From NCBI GenBank assembly GCA_937888715.1, contig CALARU010000386.1:1-57834 (forward strand): a DNA stretch of 57,834 nt, read 5' to 3'. The translations under genes were made by a program, and so were the position numbers. The first letter of the stretch is position 1. Each line of letters opens with the position of its first letter. A model generated the notes under the pieces. That model was given only the letters and a program-made list of their open reading frames with translations. It searched no databases and was not told the origin of the DNA. The stretch comes from an uncultured Planctomycetaceae bacterium. Lineage in GTDB: Bacteria > Planctomycetota > Planctomycetia > Gemmatales > Gemmataceae. Shown piece after piece: positions 2,126-48,449 of this stretch.

Positions 2126-3265
2126 ATGCTACAAAAATCAAATACGCTCGTTCCATCCATCTACCCTGGGTCAGTCTACAAATTTGCTGATCTTGATAAA
2201 TACGAAGAAGCCATTCTAAATCCCAGCGAAGAATTTATTTACGCAAGGGATGGCCATCCAAATGCAGTGATAACAGCCAACGAAATTACGAAATTACACA
2301 ATGCCGATTGGGGAATAGTTACAGGCAGCGGAATGGGTGCGATTTCTGCAGTATTCATGGGTTTACTATCATCAGGCACTAGAATCATTGCAGGAAAAAG
2401 GCTTTACGGACGAACCCTAAAAATTCTAGAAAAAGATTTCGCTCGTTTTGGTGTCCAATGCAACATCGTAGATGAATGCAACCTAAACGAACTTAAATCA
2501 GCATTATCAACGCCCGCCTCAATTCTTTTCATTGAAACCATTACCAACCCAACTTTACGCGTACCTAATCTTAAAGAAATAAGCTTACTTACAAAAAAGA
2601 ATAAAACACATTTGGTTGTCGATAATACTTTTGCAACACCTTTACTATGCAAACCTTTAGATCATGGCGCAGATATTGTAATTGAAAGCCTAACAAAAAT
2701 CATGTGTGGTCATAGTGATGTAACCATGGGATATGTAGGCGGAAATCAAGGCACACAAGAAAATATAATTAAAGCTGTTAAAGATCTAGGTTTCCACGCA
2801 AGCCCCTTTGATTGTTGGCTGATATCACGAAGTTTAGAAACATTGAAATTAAGATTAAATCAAAGCTGCAAAAACGCTTTTGAATTAGCAAACTGGTTAA
2901 AAACAAGCCATAAAGAAATAAGAGTAGACTTTCCAGGATTACAAAACCACGAAGATTTTGAAATCTCGTTAAAACAATTTGGTAACTTTCCCGGACATTT
3001 AATTGCTGTTGAAATCCCAAAGGGCAGGGCGGGAGTGAACAAGTTTTTACAGGCTGCAATCAATATCCCTTTTTGCCCTAGCCTTGGCCACTCATCAACA
3101 AGTGTAAGTCACTCCTGGAGTACATCTCACAGGCAATTAACATCGGATCAAAAAATTGGACTCAAAATAACCGAGGGACTGCTTCGCGTATCGGTTGGCC
3201 ATGAACCAATTGAGGAAATCATAAGTTCATTTGATAAAGGTTTAAGAGCTGCACAAGAATTTTAA
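2126..3265 (+). CDS. PLP-dependent Cys/Met-metabolism (transsulfuration) enzyme
   Basis: A 379-residue fold-type I PLP enzyme of the cystathionine gamma-synthase / gamma-lyase / methionine gamma-lyase family. The schiff-base lysine is K191 in ESLTKIMCGHS. The PLP-ring aspartate is D166 in VVDNTFATP, and the phosphate-binding YxR motif is present as YARDG near residue 40. A GSGMGAIS turn lies near residue 70. The family catalyses gamma- or beta-elimination or replacement on cysteine, homocysteine or methionine derivatives; the exact reaction cannot be fixed from sequence alone. An upstream in-frame GTG at 2117 would overlap the previous gene. I prefer the ATG at 2126, though no strong ribosome site is visible. 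The 3' end overlaps the convergent next gene by four bases. Confidence 0.85.
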   Translation: MLQKSNTLVPSIYPGSVYKFADLDKYEEAILNPSEEFIYARDGHPNAVITANEITKLHNADWGIVTGSGMGAISAVFMGLLSSGTRIIAGKRLYGRTLKILEKDFARFGVQCNIVDECNLNELKSALSTPASILFIETITNPTLRVPNLKEISLLTKKNKTHLVVDNTFATPLLCKPLDHGADIVIESLTKIMCGHSDVTMGYVGGNQGTQENIIKAVKDLGFHASPFDCWLISRSLETLKLRLNQSCKNAFELANWLKTSHKEIRVDFPGLQNHEDFEISLKQFGNFPGHLIAVEIPKGRAGVNKFLQAAINIPFCPSLGHSSTSVSHSWSTSHRQLTSDQKIGLKITEGLLRVSVGHEPIEEIISSFDKGLRAAQEF

Positions 3266-4389
3266 TCAGAGCCATTCTTCTTTTTATTGGACAAATAAAT
3301 CTTTGTAATTTTATCGGTCAATTCTGGCAACTTATCCATCAGCCTTCTCAATTTTCGTGGCTTGCATGATTGCTGTGCATAAAGGGATAGCAAAGGCATG
3401 GCTATAGTTGAATCCACATAAGCAGTTACAGTATCAGGGAGCTGAGATTCATCCACTTTACCCCAAGTCATAGCTTCTTGAGGAGTTGCTCCACTTAACC
3501 CGCCAGTATCGGGTCTGGCATCAGTAAATTGAATAAAGTAATCATGTCCTTTTTCCTCAAGACCAAGGACTTCCTGAATTTGTGGTTCCGTTTGCAATAT
3601 AAAATTCTTTGGGGATCCACCCCCGAAAATTAATACTCCGCTTTTTCCTGTAGTTTTGGCTTCATATACTATTGCAGCCGATTGGTTAACATCCAAAAGC
3701 GGATTAATGGCCAAACCATTCCCTTCAAGTTGTAATGCAGCAAGATTCATTCCTATAGAGCTATCACCTGGAGAAGAAGTAAAAACTGGAACGCCAGCAC
3801 GGTATGCAGCAGCAAGAAAACTTTTTCCTACATTTTTTGTTTTTTCTTCGTGAGCAGAAAGATACTTCCCAGCAAGATTGTGAAATTCCGCAGTACCCAT
3901 TGTTTTTTGAAAAGCTTCACCACGACTCAACTGACGAAAAAACAAATCCGTACCAAGTAAATTCTCATAATCGAAAACAATATCATAAATTCTTATCACT
4001 TGATGCGCTTTAAGTTGGTGATCATCCAAACCAGGACGGGACTGATGCAACTCCATTCCGAGAGCAAAATGGGTGTCATGATAAATATTTGCACCCGTAC
4101 TTACAATCCAATCAATAAAGCCAGCTTCAATCAGAGGAACAAGACAAGACATTCCTAAGCCCGCCGGAGTAAGAGCCCCACTAAGCGCAACTCCAACAAC
4201 ACAATCAGATGCAAGCATTTTATCGGAATAGATTCGACAGGCTTCACGAAGTCTTCCGGCGTTATAAGAAAGAAAAATATCATCAATAAGTTTTTTACAA
4301 GAATAAGAATCAACCAAAGCTGGGGGTTCTATTTTCTTTTGACTTATTTTTTTAATGTACTCTTGGCACTTTGTTCTTTTAATAGTCAT
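3262..4389 (-). CDS. Deoxyhypusine-synthase family protein (possibly homospermidine synthase)
   Basis: A 375-residue deoxyhypusine synthase (DHS) family protein. The N-terminal half carries the NAD-site pattern GALTPAGLGMSCLVPLIEAG and STGANIYHD (about 71-105). The C-terminal half carries FGGGSPKN and EAMTWGK, with K311 at the position of the lysine that forms the covalent aminobutyl intermediate in DHS. Eukaryotic and archaeal DHS modify eIF5A. Bacteria lack eIF5A, and characterised bacterial relatives transfer the aminobutyl group to putrescine, making homospermidine. That function is inferred here. The ATG at 4389 follows AAAGGG by eight bases. It is transcribed alone, convergent with the PLP enzyme. 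Confidence 0.85.
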   Translation of the reverse strand: MTIKRTKCQEYIKKISQKKIEPPALVDSYSCKKLIDDIFLSYNAGRLREACRIYSDKMLASDCVVGVALSGALTPAGLGMSCLVPLIEAGFIDWIVSTGANIYHDTHFALGMELHQSRPGLDDHQLKAHQVIRIYDIVFDYENLLGTDLFFRQLSRGEAFQKTMGTAEFHNLAGKYLSAHEEKTKNVGKSFLAAAYRAGVPVFTSSPGDSSIGMNLAALQLEGNGLAINPLLDVNQSAAIVYEAKTTGKSGVLIFGGGSPKNFILQTEPQIQEVLGLEEKGHDYFIQFTDARPDTGGLSGATPQEAMTWGKVDESQLPDTVTAYVDSTIAMPLLSLYAQQSCKPRKLRRLMDKLPELTDKITKIYLSNKKKNGSD

Positions 4390-4435
4390 TCATTTACCCT
4401 TTAAAACAAAGGCCATATACATCTAAATCGAAGTA

Positions 4436-6127
4436 TTACTTTTTAAAATCTAGCGAAAACGCTTCAGCACTCAATGGTTTATCAGTTGCAAACTTAACTA
4501 AATCATCCCACGGCAGAGACTTCCCTGATGAAAAAATTTTGTTACGCATAAAATCACCCACCTTTAAATTTCCCTCATATATAACTTCTGAGGGCGATTT
4601 CCCCGGATATAAGTCCTTGGTGATGGCGTGATGTACTTGCGAAGCAAATAGTTCGCCAAGCATATAATTATGGTAATAGACAGGCGCACTTACAATGTGG
4701 ATCTTACTAGCATAATCAGCAGAATTCCGATTCACAGGCATGGAAATACCTTGGTATTTCTTGACCAAAGTCCACCATAACAAATTCAAATCTTGCTTTG
4801 GATCTTCATACATCCCTTTTTCAAAACGAAGCATCACTTGGCACCATCTTGAAAAAATCAACAAACGATTTTTAAGGTTTTTCGATGCAGCGGCATCAAA
4901 CCCTTCAGAATCTTCAACTTTTAAACCCATAGCTTTTAAAAACGAAGACCTCTTTGTCAAACGTTCAAACATCATTGCCACACCTTCAGTTGTCAAAATA
5001 TGACATTCAGACCTTAAAAGATAAGGCAAAGAAGCGGGAATATTATTATTGTTCGAACTATAAACTGCATGACCAAATTCATGCAAAAGAGTGGATGCCC
5101 AATAATCATCTGGTTTAACATTTGCAAGAACCCTTACATCCCCTGATCTATCAATATCAGTACAGAATGCATGGGGGCTTTTACCCTTTTTTTCATATAA
5201 ATCGCTATTGGCAATAACGCGATCAATAGGAAGTCCAATTCCTTTATAAAACTTCTGTGATAATCCTAGTAAATCGGCTTTTTTGAACGGACCATCCAAA
5301 TCTAAACCAAAGATTGCAGGTGCTTCTTGAAAAAAAGGGTCATGGTAATGCCACGCTTGCAATTGTTCTTTTTTTATTTTGTAATTCAACGCCAACTTAG
5401 AATCTATTTCGTCTTTAATTTGCTGAAAAGGCTCACGGGTAAGTTCATCAAGTTGATCAAAAATCTTGATTAAATCACTAGCCTTTTGTTCGTTTAAAAA
5501 AAGCTGCATTTCGTGATAATTCGAAAATTTCAAATGACGAGCTATTTGATTTCGAGTGGCTACAAGTTCTTTCAAATCGTTCTCAAGGATATTACCAACC
5601 TTTTTTCCAGCTTCCCAAGCTTCTTGACGAAGATTGGAATCAAGAGAATTCTTTAATATACCCCTAACATTGTTTTCAGTACTGTCTTTTCCCTGAATTA
5701 CAGGCCTGAAAGAATTAAAAGATTGTTCAACCTTATTTGATAATGCCGAAGATTTTTTAAGCAAATCCAAAGGAACTTGTTTTTCAAGATAAATCAAAAA
5801 CAATACATCAACACTGCGGGAGAGGATTGGGTCGGTTATTTTTGCTTTATTATCTTTCAAAGATTTAATTTCTTGAAACAAGTTAGCATTAGCTAAAGCC
5901 TCATCAATTTTATTTTGGGCCTTTTCTTTTTTATCAAAATCGGATGAACTTCCCGTGGTATTTGCATTCCACCAGGCAAGGTTTGCAGCGATTTCTAATG
6001 GGCGCATTATCAATTCGTGTTTATCAAGAAAACTTTTAGCAGCTTTATCCATGTTTTGATCACCAAAAACATTACTTTTCATAAATAGCATAATCAAAAG
6101 AATTGAGGATAATTGTTTAAATCCCAT
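4436..6127 (-). CDS. Secreted M2/M3-family zinc metallopeptidase
   Basis: A 563-residue exported protein of the MA clan (ACE / oligopeptidase type). A signal peptide ends near FG-DQ at residue 22-23. The zinc motif is H349-E350-F-G-H353, and a downstream glutamate, E381 in LTTEGVAMMF, fits the third ligand. Residues near 45-60 (NLAWWNANTTG) recall the N-terminal AWxYxTNxT pattern of M2 enzymes, while RNQIARHLKFSNY (about 192-204) resembles M3 oligoendopeptidases, so I leave the family as M2/M3. It probably trims peptides in the periplasm. The next gene towards its 3' end, the deoxyhypusine-synthase-like gene, is on the same strand 46 bases away. Confidence 0.75.
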   Translation of the reverse strand: MGFKQLSSILLIMLFMKSNVFGDQNMDKAAKSFLDKHELIMRPLEIAANLAWWNANTTGSSSDFDKKEKAQNKIDEALANANLFQEIKSLKDNKAKITDPILSRSVDVLFLIYLEKQVPLDLLKKSSALSNKVEQSFNSFRPVIQGKDSTENNVRGILKNSLDSNLRQEAWEAGKKVGNILENDLKELVATRNQIARHLKFSNYHEMQLFLNEQKASDLIKIFDQLDELTREPFQQIKDEIDSKLALNYKIKKEQLQAWHYHDPFFQEAPAIFGLDLDGPFKKADLLGLSQKFYKGIGLPIDRVIANSDLYEKKGKSPHAFCTDIDRSGDVRVLANVKPDDYWASTLLHEFGHAVYSSNNNNIPASLPYLLRSECHILTTEGVAMMFERLTKRSSFLKAMGLKVEDSEGFDAAASKNLKNRLLIFSRWCQVMLRFEKGMYEDPKQDLNLLWWTLVKKYQGISMPVNRNSADYASKIHIVSAPVYYHNYMLGELFASQVHHAITKDLYPGKSPSEVIYEGNLKVGDFMRNKIFSSGKSLPWDDLVKFATDKPLSAEAFSLDFKK

Positions 6128-6263
6128 GTTAACCCCTAATTAAATTTATTAATTGCTATCTTATTATTGTCTAAACATTAATATTGATAAAGACTTATAT
6201 TTTAATTTCTTTAACAAATTTAAATTCTGTAGATAAATCCCAAATCTGTTGAAAAGGCCAATT

Positions 6264-6629
6264 ATGCTTGAATCCGAAAAATCAATTTTGCTCGTAGAAG
6301 ACGACACATCAACACGGCTTATAATTCAAAAAAGCATATCGAAATGGGGTTGCAAAATCTTATCTGTTTCTTCTGCTGAAGAAGCCATCCGCGTAGTCAA
6401 TATGATTACACCAACTCTCGCATTAATTGATATTTCATTACCTGGCATTGACGGGATCACTCTAGCCGAAATGTTGCTCAAAAAAAACGTTACTGCAGTT
6501 GTTTTAATGACGGCAGATAAAAACCACGCAACAAATACTGCATTGAAAAACCACAAGGTAATTTGCAAGCCTTTTAATAATGACGAATTAAAAGAAATAG
6601 TAATGCAAACGTCATTTATATTTGATTAG
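6264..6629 (+). CDS. Single-domain response regulator (CheY-like receiver)
   Basis: A 121-residue stand-alone receiver domain without an output domain. The acidic pair D13/D14 (VEDD), the phosphoacceptor D56 (ALIDISLP), the switch threonine T83 (LMTAD) and the lysine K102 (ICKPF) are all present, so it should be phosphorylated by a histidine kinase. The ATG at 6264 is chosen because GAAAAGG lies about six bases upstream; an in-frame TTG at 6249 lacks this. No kinase gene is adjacent, so its partner must be elsewhere. It ends six bases before the convergent M32 peptidase gene. Confidence 0.85.
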   Translation: MLESEKSILLVEDDTSTRLIIQKSISKWGCKILSVSSAEEAIRVVNMITPTLALIDISLPGIDGITLAEMLLKKNVTAVVLMTADKNHATNTALKNHKVICKPFNNDELKEIVMQTSFIFD

Positions 6630-6631
6630 AC

Positions 6632-6650
6632 AAATTTAAGAATTAAATTT
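6632..6650. terminator. Weak AT-only hairpin between convergent genes
   Basis: The arms AAATTTAA and TTAAATTT pair over eight bases with a three-base loop, exactly in the gap and stop region of the receiver and M32 genes. A and T only, so stability is low. A bidirectional terminator role is a guess from position. Confidence 0.3.
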
Positions 6651-8126
6651 TTGTAAAAGGTATTGTTCAAAAAACACTTTATCGAGTTTTAGCCCTGTTA
6701 CTTTTTCGCAAAGTTTTCCAGGCAGATATCTTTTACCATGAACATGGATATTTTTTTTTAGCCACTGGCGTAATTCAAAAAGAATATCAGCGTTAAGGGC
6801 ATTTTCATTCCAAGCTATTTCCTTTTTAGCTTTAGCAACAAATTGCGCAGCATAAAGATTTCCTAAAAGATAAGTAGGGAAATATCCAAAAAGACCAGCA
6901 CTCCAATGGATGTCTTGCAGGCATCCCATTGCGTCGTTTTTAGGCTTCAAACCCAAATAAGTTTCCATTTTAGCATTCCATGCTTCTGGAAGGTCTTTGA
7001 TGGAAAGGCTTTGTGAAATTAAATCCTTTTCAAGTTCATAACGAAAAATGATGTGAAGATTGTAAGTGACTTCATCAGCATCCACCCTGATAAAACCTGG
7101 CTGAACTTGATTAATTGCTTTATGAAAATCATTTAAAGATACATGAGCTAATTGTGCAGGAAAAAACTTAATAGCAAGCGGGTAAATAAAACGCCAGAAT
7201 TCCAAAGATCTTCCAATTTGATTTTCAAGAAGGCGAGATTGTGACTCATGAATACCAAGAGAAACAGCCGTTCCAGTCGGTAATCCAAAATGGTCCGGAT
7301 CTAAACCTTGCTCATACAAGCCATGTCCTGCCTCATGCAAAACACCAAATAAACCTGATGAAAAATCTGAAGGGTTAAATCGAGTGGTAATCCTACAATC
7401 GCCTGGCCCGATACCACAGCAAAAAGGATGCGCAGTTGTATCAAGCCTACCTGCATTAAAATCAAATCCACAATAGCCTGCAACAATTTCGCTAAAAATC
7501 TTTTGTTTTTGTTCAGGGTAGTTTCCCAAAATTAAGCTGCGCTTATTTTCTTTTGCACAATTATTTAATACCTTAATAATCGAATCTTTTAACGGATAAA
7601 AAATCGAATCTAACTCGATAGAAGTTGCGCCCGGTTCATAATCATCTAGCAAAGCATCATAATTTGCCTGACCATTTGCAAGGCACTTCGCTTCCTGCCT
7701 TTTAAGATTAATAATTTTCTCAAGCCATGGTTCGAACAAGCTAAAATTGTTTTGAGATCTAGCTTCCTGCCAAGCCTGTTGGGAATATACAAATGTTTTT
7801 GAGAGTTCTTGAACCAAAGAAACGGGAATTTTATTTGCGCGGTTAAATACGCGAATCCATTCTCTTGCATTAACACTCATGTCGGAATCTGAAGGAAAAA
7901 CAGCAGATTCCGAAGCAAGTTCCATCAATGCATCGCAAAGCCAAGAATCAGTAACTAGTTCGTGGTGCAATTTTGAAAGGGCAGAATTCTGAAGGGCACG
8001 AAGGTCTGCCCCGCCGGGGGGCATATTCGTTCTTTCATCCCAGCCTATTAATTCTGCACAAGATTCAATAACCCGGGCATTCTTAAAATGCTCTTTTAAT
8101 TTCAGGTATTTTAATTCAAGATCCAT
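6636..8126 (-). CDS. M32 metallocarboxypeptidase (Taq carboxypeptidase family)
   Basis: A 496-residue M32 carboxypeptidase of full family length (about 500). The zinc-binding HEAGH is H264-E265-A-G-H268, and the HES motif with the third ligand (H293-E294) follows at the normal spacing. The family substrate-binding segment CCGIGPGDCRITTRF precedes HEAGH. These enzymes remove C-terminal amino acids from peptides in the cytoplasm, and no signal peptide is seen. The ATG at 8126 follows AGGA by seven bases; the upstream TTG at 8141 does not. It lies 16 bases downstream of rho on the same strand and may be co-transcribed. Confidence 0.93.
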   Translation of the reverse strand: MDLELKYLKLKEHFKNARVIESCAELIGWDERTNMPPGGADLRALQNSALSKLHHELVTDSWLCDALMELASESAVFPSDSDMSVNAREWIRVFNRANKIPVSLVQELSKTFVYSQQAWQEARSQNNFSLFEPWLEKIINLKRQEAKCLANGQANYDALLDDYEPGATSIELDSIFYPLKDSIIKVLNNCAKENKRSLILGNYPEQKQKIFSEIVAGYCGFDFNAGRLDTTAHPFCCGIGPGDCRITTRFNPSDFSSGLFGVLHEAGHGLYEQGLDPDHFGLPTGTAVSLGIHESQSRLLENQIGRSLEFWRFIYPLAIKFFPAQLAHVSLNDFHKAINQVQPGFIRVDADEVTYNLHIIFRYELEKDLISQSLSIKDLPEAWNAKMETYLGLKPKNDAMGCLQDIHWSAGLFGYFPTYLLGNLYAAQFVAKAKKEIAWNENALNADILFELRQWLKKNIHVHGKRYLPGKLCEKVTGLKLDKVFFEQYLLQKFNS

Positions 8127-8142
8127 CTGAAATCCTGGCAAA

Positions 8143-9552
8143 TTAAGCCATGTTCATATTCATAAGAAATTCAGCATTTGTTTTGCATTTCTTAAGCCTA
8201 GACACCATCAATTCCATCGCATCAACAGGGTGCATATCCGCCAGTACTCTGCGAAGAGCCCGGACTCTATCCAGTTCATCGGGATGCATAAGCAATTCTT
8301 CTTTTCGAGTACCGGACCGGTTAATATCAATCGCCGGCCATACTCGTTTATCTACCAACTTTCGGTCGAGATGAACTTCCATATTGCCAGTGCCTTTGAA
8401 TTCTTCAAAGATAACTTCGTCCATCCTGGAACCTGTATCGATCAATGCCGTTGCAAGAATTGTAAGGCTGCCACCATTTTCGATATTTCGCGCAGCACCA
8501 AAAAATCTTTTAGGTTTCTGCATTGCATTAGAATCAAGACCACCACTGAGCAATTTACCGCCGGATGGTGCTTCCGAATTGTGAGCCCGCGCAAGCCTTG
8601 TGATTGAATCTAAAAGAATGATCACATCCCTGCCGTCTTCTACTAATCTTTTTGCTTTTTCCATTGCGATTTCACTGACATGCACATGATCCGTAGAAGG
8701 TTCATCAAAAGTACTGGCTACAACTTCAGCGTTGGCACTAGCAACAGAACGAACCATTTCTGTAACTTCTTCAGGGCGTTCATCAATAAGCAAAACGATC
8801 AAATAAGCATCTGGGTGATTCTGTTTAATAGCTTGAGCAATGCGCATTAAAAGAACAGTTTTACCAGCTCTTGGCGGAGAAACGATCAAACCACGCTGAC
8901 CTTTACCAATGGGGGTAATTAAGTCAACAACTCTGGTTGAAAGGTCCCCATCTGAAGTTTCAAGAAAAAGTCTTTTATTAGGATGAAGTGGGGTTAGATC
9001 TTCAAAAACAACAGGGCGAGCTCGCTCATCTGGAGCACGACCTTGCACAAGTTCAACTTGCATCAAAGCGAAGTTGTCCTGCCCTTCAATCGGCAAGCGA
9101 ATAGGGCCTTCAATCATAAGGCCAGTGCGTAAACCAAGCCTGCGTATTTGACTTGGGGAAACATAAATATCTTCTGGAGAAGCCAGATAATTATGCGCCG
9201 CACTACGAAGAAAACCATATCCATCGGGCAGAACTTCCAAAGTTCCGGAACCTTTAACGGCATTACCGCGCTCAATTTGTCTGCGAACTACCGACACAAT
9301 TAACTGTACACGGGTCATCCCAGTGTGTTCAGCTATACCTTCTTTTTCGGCATGCGCAAAAAGTTTAGGCATTGGAAGCCTATACAAATCATCAAGTCGT
9401 GTGCTGGTTTGCACCTTGGCAACTGGAGTTATAGGCTGTGCCGGTTGACTTGATTCAATACTGCTTGAAGGGGAAGCTTGTTCTGGAGATTTGCGAACTA
9501 CTCTTTTCCTAGCTAGGTTGCCCATCCCTTCGTCGCCGCGTGCGACGGACAT
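8143..9552 (-). CDS. rho: Transcription termination factor Rho
   Basis: A 469-residue RNA-dependent ATPase that terminates transcription. After a Ser/Pro-rich N-terminal tail (1-50) come the Rho N-terminal helical domain (about 50-95), the cold-shock RNA-binding domain with [10 protein letters not shown] (about 108-175), and the RecA-like domain. Walker A is PPRAGKT (K231), an Arg in place of the common Lys of PPKAGKT. The Walker B/Q-loop region [16 protein letters not shown] is intact. The ATG at 9552 is decided by GGAGG at 9560-9564, seven bases upstream. The short basic, Ser-rich N-terminal extension is common in this phylum. Confidence 0.97.
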
Positions 9553-45597: not shown

Positions 45598-46230
45598 ATG
45601 TCATCATTTTGGATGTTTGTAATAAATGATTGGATATTCGCAATCCCCATGCTAGCCATGTCGGTTTGCGGAATTGCATTAATAACTTGGCGGATTCTTC
45701 TTAATCGAGGGCTTCTGCAAAATACTGAGGCACATTTGGAAACATTAAAAGCCACACTACTAAAGGATGGCATAAAAGCAGCAATAACATTAAACAACGA
45801 TCAAAAAGACTGGCTGGGCGTATTATTGTTTTCCGCTGGTATTAAAGGCCTGGGAAACGGAATACCTGCCTCAAGAAAAGAAATAAACAACGCAATGGAA
45901 TTTGAAATAATTCCAAGACTCAACTTTCTGCTCCCAACAATGCTAGCAATTGCAAAAATCGCAACCATGGTTGGCTTACTTGGAACAGTTATCAGCATGA
46001 TTGGAACTTTCACGAAAATACAAGAAGCTCAAGGGGGCGTTTCAGAACAAGCTGGCTCAATTGGTTTAGCCCTTTTTGCTACGGCACTTGGCTTGGTTAC
46101 CGCAATACCCCTTGTATTTTCTCATGTAATGTTCAAAGCTCAAATCAATGATTTTGAACTTCAAATAAAAAAAGCTGTTCAAAAATTTATTGAAATGGCA
46201 ACCACATTAAAAACACCCCTTAAACCTTGA
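45598..46230 (+). CDS. MotA/TolQ/ExbB proton channel family protein
   Basis: A 210-residue membrane protein with three helices (about 15-35, 120-145, 160-180). The channel pattern ATMVGLLGTVISMIGTF followed by LFATALGLVTAIPLVF matches the TolQ/ExbB family, which forms the inner-membrane motor with ExbD/TolR. AAAGGA lies eight bases before the ATG. It leads a compact set with two ExbD-type genes, so it probably powers an outer-membrane process. Its own substrates are unknown. Confidence 0.9.
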   Translation: MSSFWMFVINDWIFAIPMLAMSVCGIALITWRILLNRGLLQNTEAHLETLKATLLKDGIKAAITLNNDQKDWLGVLLFSAGIKGLGNGIPASRKEINNAMEFEIIPRLNFLLPTMLAIAKIATMVGLLGTVISMIGTFTKIQEAQGGVSEQAGSIGLALFATALGLVTAIPLVFSHVMFKAQINDFELQIKKAVQKFIEMATTLKTPLKP

Positions 46231-46237
46231 ATCAATT

Positions 46238-46915
46238 ATGCTGCCAGATGCCAAATATTATGATGTGTGGATTATTAAAGCTAATCAGGTGATCAGAGAG
46301 ATCCCTGCGGCTACTATTTTGCAATGGATTGGAGAAAGACGATTGGTGGTTCGTGACAAAATACGCCCTGCTGGCACCGCAGATTGGTTCGAAGTTGGCC
46401 AACACCCCTCTCTTGCAAACATCTTGCCACAAAAAGAAAATCCTGAACCGGAAATCTTCGAACCCCCATCTCATTCTTTTCAAAAGCATCAAAGTGTTGA
46501 TGATGATATCGATATGATTCCATTAATAGATGTAAGCCTAGTGTTGTTGGTTTATTTTTTAATGAGTACATCTTCTCTAGGTTCAGGGACATCCACAAAA
46601 CTTCCGATTGCAGAATATGCAAGTGTGCAGGGCATAAAAGACCAAGCTTGGATTGAAGTAGAGAACAACAAAGCTTACACAGTCGGGTTTGCAGAGAGAA
46701 AAAAAGACCAAACAACCAAATTTGAGTCCCAAGAAAAATTGATTGCTTATCTTCAAGATGAAATTAGAAAAGGGCAGGGGTTTAAAGAAGTAACTGTGTA
46801 TGCTCCTGGAGATATATCTGCTGGAACCATTCGCACCTTGGTAACTTCAATTGAAAAATCATTTGGCAAAGATGAGATTTCTAAAATTCATCTGGGAGTC
46901 ACCGGAAAAAAATGA
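46238..46915 (+). CDS. ExbD/TolR protein with N-terminal GYF_2-like module
   Basis: A 225-residue protein. Residues about 5-65 resemble a GYF_2/DUF4339 module, with the pattern of a strand, a helix with W-I-G, then VVRDKIRPAGTADWFEV and HPSLANIL. A single membrane helix follows, with the motor motif DMIPLIDVSLVLLVYFLM (about 90-107) whose Asp (ID) is the proton carrier. The C-terminal periplasmic domain is about 110 residues. A GYF_2 module on ExbD is unusual and would face the cytoplasm. Seven bases after the TolQ-like gene. Confidence 0.85.
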   Translation: MLPDAKYYDVWIIKANQVIREIPAATILQWIGERRLVVRDKIRPAGTADWFEVGQHPSLANILPQKENPEPEIFEPPSHSFQKHQSVDDDIDMIPLIDVSLVLLVYFLMSTSSLGSGTSTKLPIAEYASVQGIKDQAWIEVENNKAYTVGFAERKKDQTTKFESQEKLIAYLQDEIRKGQGFKEVTVYAPGDISAGTIRTLVTSIEKSFGKDEISKIHLGVTGKK

Positions 46916-47514
46916 GCCTTTGGGATTTGAAAAACCATGGTACAGACTCAAAATCAATTCTACTTGAGTCCATCGAAATACAAGATCTCATTGTATCTGG
47001 GTTAATTTCTATCCATGATGAAATCCGAAAAGAAGGGGAGATCGTATGGAAAACCCTACAAGATTATCCAGAATTCGAGGAAGTTTTATCATCAAAATCA
47101 ACAATCAAACACGAAGACGATGACAACATCGACATGAATGCTTTAATTGATGTTTGCTTGGTACTTTTAGTCTTTTTCATCCTCTTAACTAGCTATGCAA
47201 AATTAGTGCAACATCTTGAAGCAGCTAAAACCAATCCAGATTCAAAAATTCCATCAATTAGCACTTCCCAAGCTGATCAAAAAACTAAAGTTGTGATAAA
47301 AAAAGAAGGTGGAAAAACTATTTTCTATATCAATGAACAACCAGTCGAAAGTAACAATCTTACTTCTGCCTTAAAAGCTTCTGCACGAAAATTAAAAAGC
47401 AAAGATTTGATTTTATATTACAGCGATGATGTTCCATACCAAGCGGTGATATCTATTCAAGATGCAGCAAGGGCTGCTGATTTTCAACAAATACTCCAAG
47501 CACTGGAAAAATAA
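46912..47514 (+). CDS. Second ExbD/TolR-like protein
   Basis: A 200-residue protein overlapping the previous gene by four bases (ATGA). The N-terminal 65 residues show a faint version of the same module: GLISIHDEIRKEGEIVWKTL and YPEFEEVL align with the preceding protein's D-x-I-R, G-x3-W and P-x5-L positions. The ExbD motif is DMNALIDVCLVLLVFFILL, again with the essential Asp. The periplasmic domain follows. Two tandem ExbD proteins suggest a heteromeric stator. Confidence 0.85.
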   Translation: MSLWDLKNHGTDSKSILLESIEIQDLIVSGLISIHDEIRKEGEIVWKTLQDYPEFEEVLSSKSTIKHEDDDNIDMNALIDVCLVLLVFFILLTSYAKLVQHLEAAKTNPDSKIPSISTSQADQKTKVVIKKEGGKTIFYINEQPVESNNLTSALKASARKLKSKDLILYYSDDVPYQAVISIQDAARAADFQQILQALEK

Positions 47515-47516
47515 CC

Positions 47517-48449
47517 CTACTTTTTCTTGAAGATAATATCTGCCTTTGCAGGTTCGTATTTACCTGCGGTTTTACTGATTGTAAACCGGGTCTCTTGAAT
47601 ATCATCCTCTTTAGCGCCTTGAAGCGATGCTTTTTCTAGTTTCTGCAATTTCTCTTCAACAGAAACAGGCATAAGCACCACAAATGCTTCTGCTTTGATT
47701 TGCAGGCCCATCGCACGAGATAAATTTGTAACTGATTGTGCTTTGTCATCCACCCAAAAAATATCACTAACTGAAGACAAATCCAATTCCATAGTTGTTA
47801 TCGGTTTAACACCAAGGTTTGAAATAACCAAAAATTTACCTGGCTTATTTGGATCCGGGAAAGCAAGCCGAGCATTCAAATCCATTAATTGTGAAAGATA
47901 ATCCGAGCCATTTGTGGTGTTAAAAACCATTATCCACCGAAGCATTCGTTCACCCCGACCATCACCAACCCCGTCGCCTTTTGTATTTCCAACACCCTTC
48001 AAACCCTCAATAATTTTGCTTTTTAAATTTTGCCCTATACGAGATAACTCTTGAGCTTTGGCATTCGCATCCTCCACCAAGGATTTTCCGCCCGTTTTAT
48101 CAACTTGAATTTTTTCTGTCGGAGAGGGATCCAACTTTAATGGAATTTCGGGCATGCTTTCTTTATCTGGAATATTCAATTTAGTAGGAGTTTTGATCGT
48201 ATCATCATTTTCTTTTGCATCGGGGGAACCAGACGAAGTGCCACCCCCAACCCTTACTGAGGAAACCCCAAGCCTTCGGTTAACATCTCCAATTATTGCT
48301 TTTTTTAACCCTTCCCAACCAAGCATCATAATTATGGTAACCAATGCAATGTGAACGATAAACGAAACAAACAACGAGGTAAATGACTCATAATTTGGCG
48401 AATATTTAATCCAAAGCTGTTTTTGCCAAGTAGTAGTTTTCATAATCAT
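47517..48449 (-). CDS. TonB/TolA-like single-helix periplasmic protein, unrecognised
   Basis: A 310-residue protein, probably anchored by one helix (SLFVSFIVHIALVTIIMMLGW, about 25-45). A Gly/Pro/Asp/Lys-rich linker of about 130 residues follows, then a folded C-terminal domain (about 175-310) starting MLRWIMVFNTTNG. The layout resembles TonB or TolA, and it lies next to, but convergent with, the TolQ/ExbD genes. No TonB signature is visible, so a transenvelope role is inference. ATGs at 48449 and 48443 are both possible; GGA precedes the second by five bases. Confidence 0.65.
   Translation of the reverse strand: MIMKTTTWQKQLWIKYSPNYESFTSLFVSFIVHIALVTIIMMLGWEGLKKAIIGDVNRRLGVSSVRVGGGTSSGSPDAKENDDTIKTPTKLNIPDKESMPEIPLKLDPSPTEKIQVDKTGGKSLVEDANAKAQELSRIGQNLKSKIIEGLKGVGNTKGDGVGDGRGERMLRWIMVFNTTNGSDYLSQLMDLNARLAFPDPNKPGKFLVISNLGVKPITTMELDLSSVSDIFWVDDKAQSVTNLSRAMGLQIKAEAFVVLMPVSVEEKLQKLEKASLQGAKEDDIQETRFTISKTAGKYEPAKADIIFKKK

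Follow-up and report, generated by a model that had tools for sequence, protein, structure and literature searches.

Proton-driven motors of the ExbB/TolQ-ExbD/TolR kind are built from five TolQ and two ExbD subunits, and in the Ton and Tol systems the transducer is known to be engaged within the membrane and in the periplasm. The topology of ExbD places its N-terminus on the cytoplasmic side. Here we describe a locus of an uncultured Planctomycetaceae bacterium in which a TolQ-like gene is followed by two tandem ExbD genes, ExbD1 and ExbD2, both of whose products begin with a module resembling the GYF_2 domain, and in which a convergent gene (47517-48449) encodes a candidate force transducer. 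The window, by which we mean the whole 57,834-nucleotide stretch analysed, is a contig (CALARU010000386.1, our C386) of a 4.56 Mb genome that is 99.6% complete.

Several described systems resemble this locus in part. In Planctomycetes-Verrucomicrobia-Chlamydiae (PVC) bacteria, a published gene set that includes a TPR gene has vWA transducers next to a tolQ and two tolR genes (PMC12204202). Those loci and ours share a TolQ-like gene, two different TolR/ExbD-like genes and a protein with one transmembrane helix, of the SHLS type there and at least partly so here, and the GYF-like ExbDs that we found outside the organism's class adjoin such vWA proteins. However, the C-terminus of the transducer in the window's order is not vWA by sequence, and the published gene lies downstream, whereas the gene in the order is convergent where it is adjacent. 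The word GYF does not occur in the main text of that paper. In the literature searched, with most subscription papers lying outside it, no paper joined ExbD and GYF.

In the gliding machine of Myxococcus, both AglQ and AglS resemble TolR, and the GYF domain of GltJ serves to dock a cytosolic protein by which the motor is placed or switched. The available part of one description (PMC12288465) presents this Agl-Glt motor (AglR/Q/S) as proton-driven and homologous to MotA/B, and the title of PDB entry 7z3c assigns a GYF domain to its force-coupled protein, GltJ. That domain is the nearest functional precedent for our modules, although it is carried by GltJ there and by ExbD stator subunits here. 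The Ton system of Xanthomonas campestris, in the part of its description available (PMC3551730), likewise has one exbB followed by tandem exbD1-exbD2, but it belongs to a TonB cluster with TonB-dependent receptors, and the genome studied here yielded neither TonB_C nor the receptor plug domain. Classical Ton transport is for that reason unlikely to be the motor's job in this organism; order-wide, TonB_C was found in 3/41 genomes and the plug in 8/41. Tol-Pal (TolQ-TolR-TolA) shares the TolQ/TolR-type subunits, and the window transducer has a TolA/TonB-like transmembrane motif, but the 16 members of its family that were scanned gave no Pfam match to TonB_C and a single weak one to TolA (E 0.21); tolB and pal had no match among the eight window proteins scanned, and no search went beyond those. 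Bacterial GYF_2 proteins (PF14237) resemble our modules in profile-profile comparison, in the W and D positions and, for ExbD1, possibly in fold, whereas the window modules fall under the Pfam gathering score, lack GP[YF] and are fused to ExbD. Set against these systems, the locus is a known kind of motor in a new variant: a sound structural observation with a well-supported partner.

On the plus strand, the channel gene is followed by ExbD1 and then by ExbD2, whose start overlaps the ExbD1 stop in an ATGA. The original prediction of a TolQ with two tandem ExbDs at 45598-47514 holds, in that the open reading frames are as it gave them and match PF01618 and PF02472 (Table 1), both ExbDs passing the PF02472 (ExbD/TolR) gathering score. 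The channel protein has three hydrophobic segments by hydropathy (6-26, 110-129, 152-179), and its best NCBIfam match is TolQ, at 56 bits far under the equivalog cut-off of 221. Hydropathy and alignments give each ExbD one hydrophobic segment carrying the Asp conserved in PF02472, preceded by an N-terminal tail of ~90 residues in ExbD1 and ~70 in ExbD2. The periplasmic part of an ExbD1 model matches TolR (5by4; Z 9.6, root-mean-square deviation (rmsd) 3.3, 95 residues aligned), and the assignment of ExbD2 comes from Pfam alone. ExbD1 matches occur in 39 of the 59 genomes searched, this one included. At 28 of 30 loci examined, counting that of the window, the ExbDs form a tandem pair, and TolQ is matched at 27 of the same 30 (two are short pieces at a contig end).

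To compare the tails, we built N-terminal profiles from 26 ExbD1 and 24 ExbD2 sequences (near-duplicates were dropped for two derived alignments, leaving 24/26 and 22/24) and a GYF_2 reference profile from the 28 true GYF_2 matches of the order and nothing else. Profile-profile comparison related ExbD1 to GYF_2 with 92.3% probability (E 5e-7), ExbD2 to GYF_2 with 95.1% (E 3e-8), and the two N-termini to each other with 95.3% (E 2e-8). Forty column shuffles per profile reached no more than 1.9%, and the transmembrane and periplasmic part of ExbD1 reached 0.8%. Searching the individual N-termini with the order-made GYF_2 profile gave the same picture: 19/26 for ExbD1 and 15/24 for ExbD2 scored at least 5 bits, as did a single shuffled N-terminus out of 1000 and none of the 26 ExbD1 transmembrane/periplasmic parts, and at least 10 bits was reached by 9/26 and 8/24, against 0/1000 shuffles. 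These two approaches make the GYF relation visible. With Pfam itself, matches to GYF_2 in relatives were weak (5/26 ExbD1, best E 0.0084; 6/24 ExbD2, best E 0.0015), and among 10 proteins scanned singly three had a match, of 12-17 bits, each inside residues 20-55. As a separate observation, GYF_2 domains are common in the order, being present in 93/102 genomes with up to 16 matches in one, and in 0/14 control genomes.

The positions picked out in the original prediction are literally present in both tails, as D40-x-I-R, G46-x3-W50 and P57-x5-L63 in ExbD1 and as D36-x-I-R, G42-x3-W46 and P53-x5-L59 in ExbD2. W11, N16, P23, D40 and W50 are invariant across the 26 ExbD1 sequences, with Trp at W30 in 25/26; D36 and W46 are invariant across the 24 ExbD2 sequences, with Trp at W4 in 22 and Pro at P53 in 23. 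Judged by sequence profiles, both N-termini are thus GYF_2-like, as had been proposed by eye alone given that Pfam GYF_2 is silent on the window proteins, and they are related to each other and conserved across the order. What did not stand is the description of the second module as the degraded copy, since, of the two window sequences, ExbD2 is the better match to the order-made GYF_2 profile (11.1 bits, against 4.8 for ExbD1). In a tree of ExbD cores the ExbD1 group (n=26) forms a clade with support 0.95, and a recent duplication of ExbD1/ExbD2 seems unlikely because the two modules are only distant relatives, each of them conserved throughout the order.

Structure prediction was informative mainly for ExbD1. 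An AlphaFold2 model from six close sequences was mediocre (mean predicted local distance difference test (pLDDT) score 60, the other four models 33-50, transmembrane helix not formed), and within it residues 1-50 have a pLDDT of 74-82 and form strands 7-12 and 17-23, a helix at 24-32 and a strand at 41-44, so that this module is predicted to be ordered; the ExbD2 model (pLDDT 46) is too poor to judge order. As the N-termini are related and the ExbD1 module is predicted to be ordered, the original prediction escapes the refutation that it had named, N-terminal regions both disordered and unrelated to each other. Foldseek placed the GYF domains 3fma (Smy2), 7z3c (Myxococcus GltJ) and 7ruq (GIGYF1) at ranks 23 and below, with a probability of 0.97 each but E 0.1-0.16, under rows of TolR and other folds such as ribosomal proteins. 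VIA-align matched model residues 5-62 to 7ruq_C (Z 6.2, rmsd 3.1, 57/62 residues), a Z below 8 being weak on its own; most of its rows concern the periplasmic part, and the GYF part accounts for 1 row of 50. The classical GYF motif is given, in the available part of its source, as GP[YF]xxxx[MV]xxWxxx[GN]YF (PMC12034629). Its second half is partly kept in ExbD1 (V/I/L 25/26, W 25/26, G 20/26). In place of the Y/F of GP[YF] there is V/I (26/26) with no Pro/Gly consensus preceding it, and at the end of the motif R/K (26/26) replaces the second Tyr and L/V/I (26/26) the last Phe. Residue conservation suggests that a hydrophobic patch of the ExbD1 module may have been kept.

The most informative neighbour, which the original prediction did not mention, is the convergent gene that ends 2 bases from ExbD2. 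We used its co-occurrence with ExbD1 across 102 genomes of the order as a measure of their association, and found both genes in 72, ExbD1 only in 2, the transducer only in 8 and neither in 20 (Fisher p 7e-13); by genus majority the counts were 30, 2, 5 and 7, respectively (p 6e-4). Seven genomes without an ExbD1 match and two without a transducer match were identified as the remainder of the 102, G099 was scored as lacking ExbD1 because its match spanned positions 66-102 only, and the eight transducer-only genomes are mostly incomplete or in many contigs. Within genus g14, two genomes have both genes and five have neither. Where both are present, the genes are adjacent (midpoints within 3.5 kb) in 26/72 genomes from 10 genera, and in all 26 they are convergent; adjacency was taken from a second, partial ExbD1 match in G115 and from a transducer fragment in G113. 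The association of this gene with the GYF-ExbD is thus well supported.

The encoded protein consists of one hydrophobic segment, a Gly/Pro-rich stretch and a C-terminal domain. The spacing of the SHLS motif is x3, x6, x3. In the window protein S-x3-H is present, and the L and the second S are replaced (I40, G44); across the 36 family members, the window included, S29 is found in 24 and H33 in 29. TonB and TolA engage their motors through this motif in the transmembrane helix, according to the available part of one paper (PMC12204202). The juxtamembrane segment is conserved, with E21 in 36/36 and W13 in 33/36, and a Pro-Pro, counted by eye, in 23/36. A decayed vWA domain was considered for the C-terminus and found no support at the sequence level: none of 16 members had a VWA match at E<=1, hhalign gave 0.11-0.15% against 99.4% for a positive control, and D-x-S-x-S is absent from the last 160 residues in 16/16. 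When whole-length profiles of the transducer and four vWA transducers were compared, only the transmembrane region aligned, S-x3-H on S-x3-H, at a weak 27%.

Table 1. Features of the motor locus and the convergent gene (window coordinates; aa, amino acids).
Feature	Position	Strand	Remarks
ExbB/TolQ-family proton-channel subunit	45598-46230	+	210 aa; PF01618 E 1.4e-19
ExbD1	46238-46915	+	225 aa; PF02472 E 2.1e-9, 38 bits vs gathering cut-off 25.4
ExbD1 residues 1-65, GYF-like cytoplasmic module	46238-46432	+	profile-profile with GYF_2 92.3%, E 5e-7
ExbD1 transmembrane helix, residues 90-115, with Asp98	46505-46582	+	hydropathy; D98 in 26/26 relatives
ExbD2	46912-47514	+	200 aa; PF02472 E 4.4e-18, 66 bits vs gathering cut-off 25.4
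ExbD2 residues 1-60, second GYF_2-like module	46912-47091	+	profile-profile with GYF_2 95.1%, E 3e-8; window sequence 11.1 bits
ExbD2 transmembrane helix, residues 71-102, with Asp80	47122-47217	+	hydropathy; D80 in 24/24 relatives
Proposed force transducer	47517-48449	-	310 aa; convergent with ExbD2, 2 bases between; no Pfam/NCBIfam family
Transducer C-terminal domain, residues 160-310	47520-47972	-	conserved in family alignment; not vWA by sequence profile
Transducer transmembrane helix, residues 21-48	48306-48389	-	hydropathy; S29-x3-H33 at 48351-48365
Transducer juxtamembrane cytoplasmic segment, residues 8-22	48384-48428	-	commonest family residues PPEExFWxRYSPxxE

GYF-like ExbDs also occur outside the class. 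Besides the genome studied here, at least six of 294 sampled from the phylum encode an ExbD with an N-terminus that matches the module; 197 genomes matched the ExbD1 profile, most of the matches listed covering the transmembrane part only, and we counted the six in which the match starts at position 21 or earlier in an unbroken frame. In profile-profile comparison their N-termini matched ExbD1 with 97.7% and GYF_2 with 97.1%, where none of 40 shuffles exceeded 6.3%, so that the module recurs on ExbDs in other planctomycete families, where one ExbD rather than a pair was seen at each of the six loci. In four of the six, the ExbD comes after an ExbB-like gene, recognised by eye, and the gene of a vWA protein (Pfam VWA_3 E 6e-19 to 6e-13) whose hydrophobic segment contains S-x3-H, all in one orientation. 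At a fifth locus, in G165 (L184), the GYF-ExbD has near it, on the opposite strand, the gene of a 516-aa protein (119-1669, minus) that combines S-x3-H with a squalene-hopene-cyclase-like domain (PF13243 E 1.4e-8), and it is possible that this cyclase-like fold is the load of the motor there. We read the GYF-like module on ExbD as the element that would stay constant, near a transducer of TonB/TolA topology whose working end varies.

The organism's own genome offers a control in a second ExbD pair with short tails that lack a GYF-like module. This second ExbB-ExbD-ExbD set lies on the minus strand of another contig (G000:C387:34500-48000 (L111), 3100-8242) and is followed by the genes of two further proteins, one of 400 aa in which hydrophobic segments were seen by eye and one of 606 aa that has S-A-A-M-H within a hydrophobic segment. 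The latter gives weak squalene-cyclase-like matches (best E 8e-4, below the cut-off) and may be a further transducer, one that ends in an alpha/alpha toroid. In CAMDHK010000365.1, a record titled Candidatus Kuenenia stuttgartiensis, the ExbD1 is 93% identical to that of the window, and the organism label of the record is therefore probably wrong. Scans of viral contigs and of plasmids gave no matches.

Taken as a working model, the three subunits would form a proton-driven inner-membrane motor in which a TolQ-like ring encloses two ExbD helices, probably one of ExbD1 and one of ExbD2, a heterodimer that we infer from the operon-like layout and the 5:2 make-up of the family. The motor would most likely pull or turn the TonB/TolA-like protein of the convergent gene. 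That protein would dock on the ring by the S-x3-H of its transmembrane helix and, with its C-terminal domain, act on an envelope target. Given the topology of ExbD, both modules would lie in the cytoplasm, where each may hold a peptide next to the motor. That peptide might come from the transducer, whose juxtamembrane segment is conserved, or be the tail of a cytosolic regulator. Our best guess is that the modules dock the one protein or the other. The original prediction took a cytoplasmic binding module to suggest regulation of the motor; with a TonB/TolA-like neighbour in convergent position, docking of a transducer or regulator is no less likely than control of proton flow. That the TolQ-ExbD1-ExbD2 motor drives this particular protein, with the modules as cytoplasmic docking handles, we would back at about even chances.

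Several results weigh against this reading. As regards the modules, Pfam GYF_2 has no match in either window ExbD even at E<=1; the PF14237 gathering score of 25.8 bits was not reached in the ExbDs scanned; searches of Pfam, NCBIfam and solved-structure sequences gave no GYF assignment for the window proteins or for the ExbD N-terminus profiles; and the GP[YF] front half-motif is absent from both modules, so that the classical signature is lost and the ligand is not readable from the sequence. One could suppose that the resemblance is convergent, a short beta-alpha-beta tail sharing W, D and G positions, with which the absence of a Pfam match in the window proteins, the weakness of those in relatives (best E 0.0015), the ~40 columns aligned in the profile comparison and the Foldseek E of about 0.1 and Z of 6.2 would agree. 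However, profile probabilities of 92-97% stand against shuffles of at most 6.3%, scores of at least 10 bits were confined to the real N-termini, and the fold match spans nearly the whole GYF domain, which leaves convergence very improbable. It is somewhat unlikely that the modules are purely structural, pairing under the TolQ ring, forcing the ExbD1-ExbD2 heterodimer and keeping the tails off the channel mouth. The presence of both ExbDs, each with its module, at 28/30 loci would be expected from such a role, as would the loss of GP[YF], but a single ExbD bears the module outside the class, and heterodimer sorting is therefore not its sole use; moreover, ExbD1 retains W11 and W30.

The choice of partner is open to similar objections. 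Related genomes were treated as independent in the co-occurrence test, which inflates its p-values, and of the 72 genomes that have both genes, 46 have them non-adjacent, in 9 cases on one contig but far apart and in 37 on separate contigs. S-x3-H is incomplete in the family, H33 being missing from 7/36 and S29 from 12/36, and the Pro-Pro is absent from two sequences of the window's own genus, which makes the segment weaker as a GYF ligand. Outside the class, no S-x3-H protein was seen beside the ExbD of the sixth locus (G201), and the order's transducer family was not found in 26 genomes, six of them with a GYF-like ExbD, in a search that had no positive control. If the convergent gene were a mere neighbour, with the motor driving another transducer or serving a TolR-only task, the separated genes, the incomplete motif and the eight genomes that have the transducer with no GYF-ExbD detected would be accounted for; the 72 + 20 concordant genomes against 10 discordant, the joint presence or absence inside g14 and the invariable convergence of the adjacent pairs render this unlikely. 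A more serious contender, to which we give a probability a little short of even, is that the partner docked by the modules is a separate cytosolic protein, a regulator or positioning factor that places or switches the motor, the transducer tail not being the ligand. The GltJ precedent, with its solved GYF domain (7z3c) among the fold matches of the ExbD1 model, points this way, as do the limited spread of the Pro-Pro in the transducer tail and the quite different transducers that accompany GYF-like ExbDs outside the class. Against it, no recurring third neighbour was seen by eye in the neighbourhoods of eight relatives, apart from G034 with its window-like gene order, although an unlinked regulator would escape such a comparison.

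Our preferred reading, in which the modules are docking handles of a motor that drives the convergent gene's product, can be carried further, to a picture that we consider speculative and on balance doubtful. This would be a TonB-free trans-envelope machine of planctomycetes in which two unlike GYF adaptors on the stator axle clutch a new transducer family by a conserved cytoplasmic peptide; whether the load is engaged would then be settled on the side of the cytoplasm, with the GYF-ExbD constant and the transducers exchangeable (vWA elsewhere). If the modules do bind ligands, motors of the Ton/Tol type would be addressable from inside the cell too. The locus also names a candidate transducer family for such a motor in planctomycetes in which neither TonB nor a TonB-dependent receptor was found.

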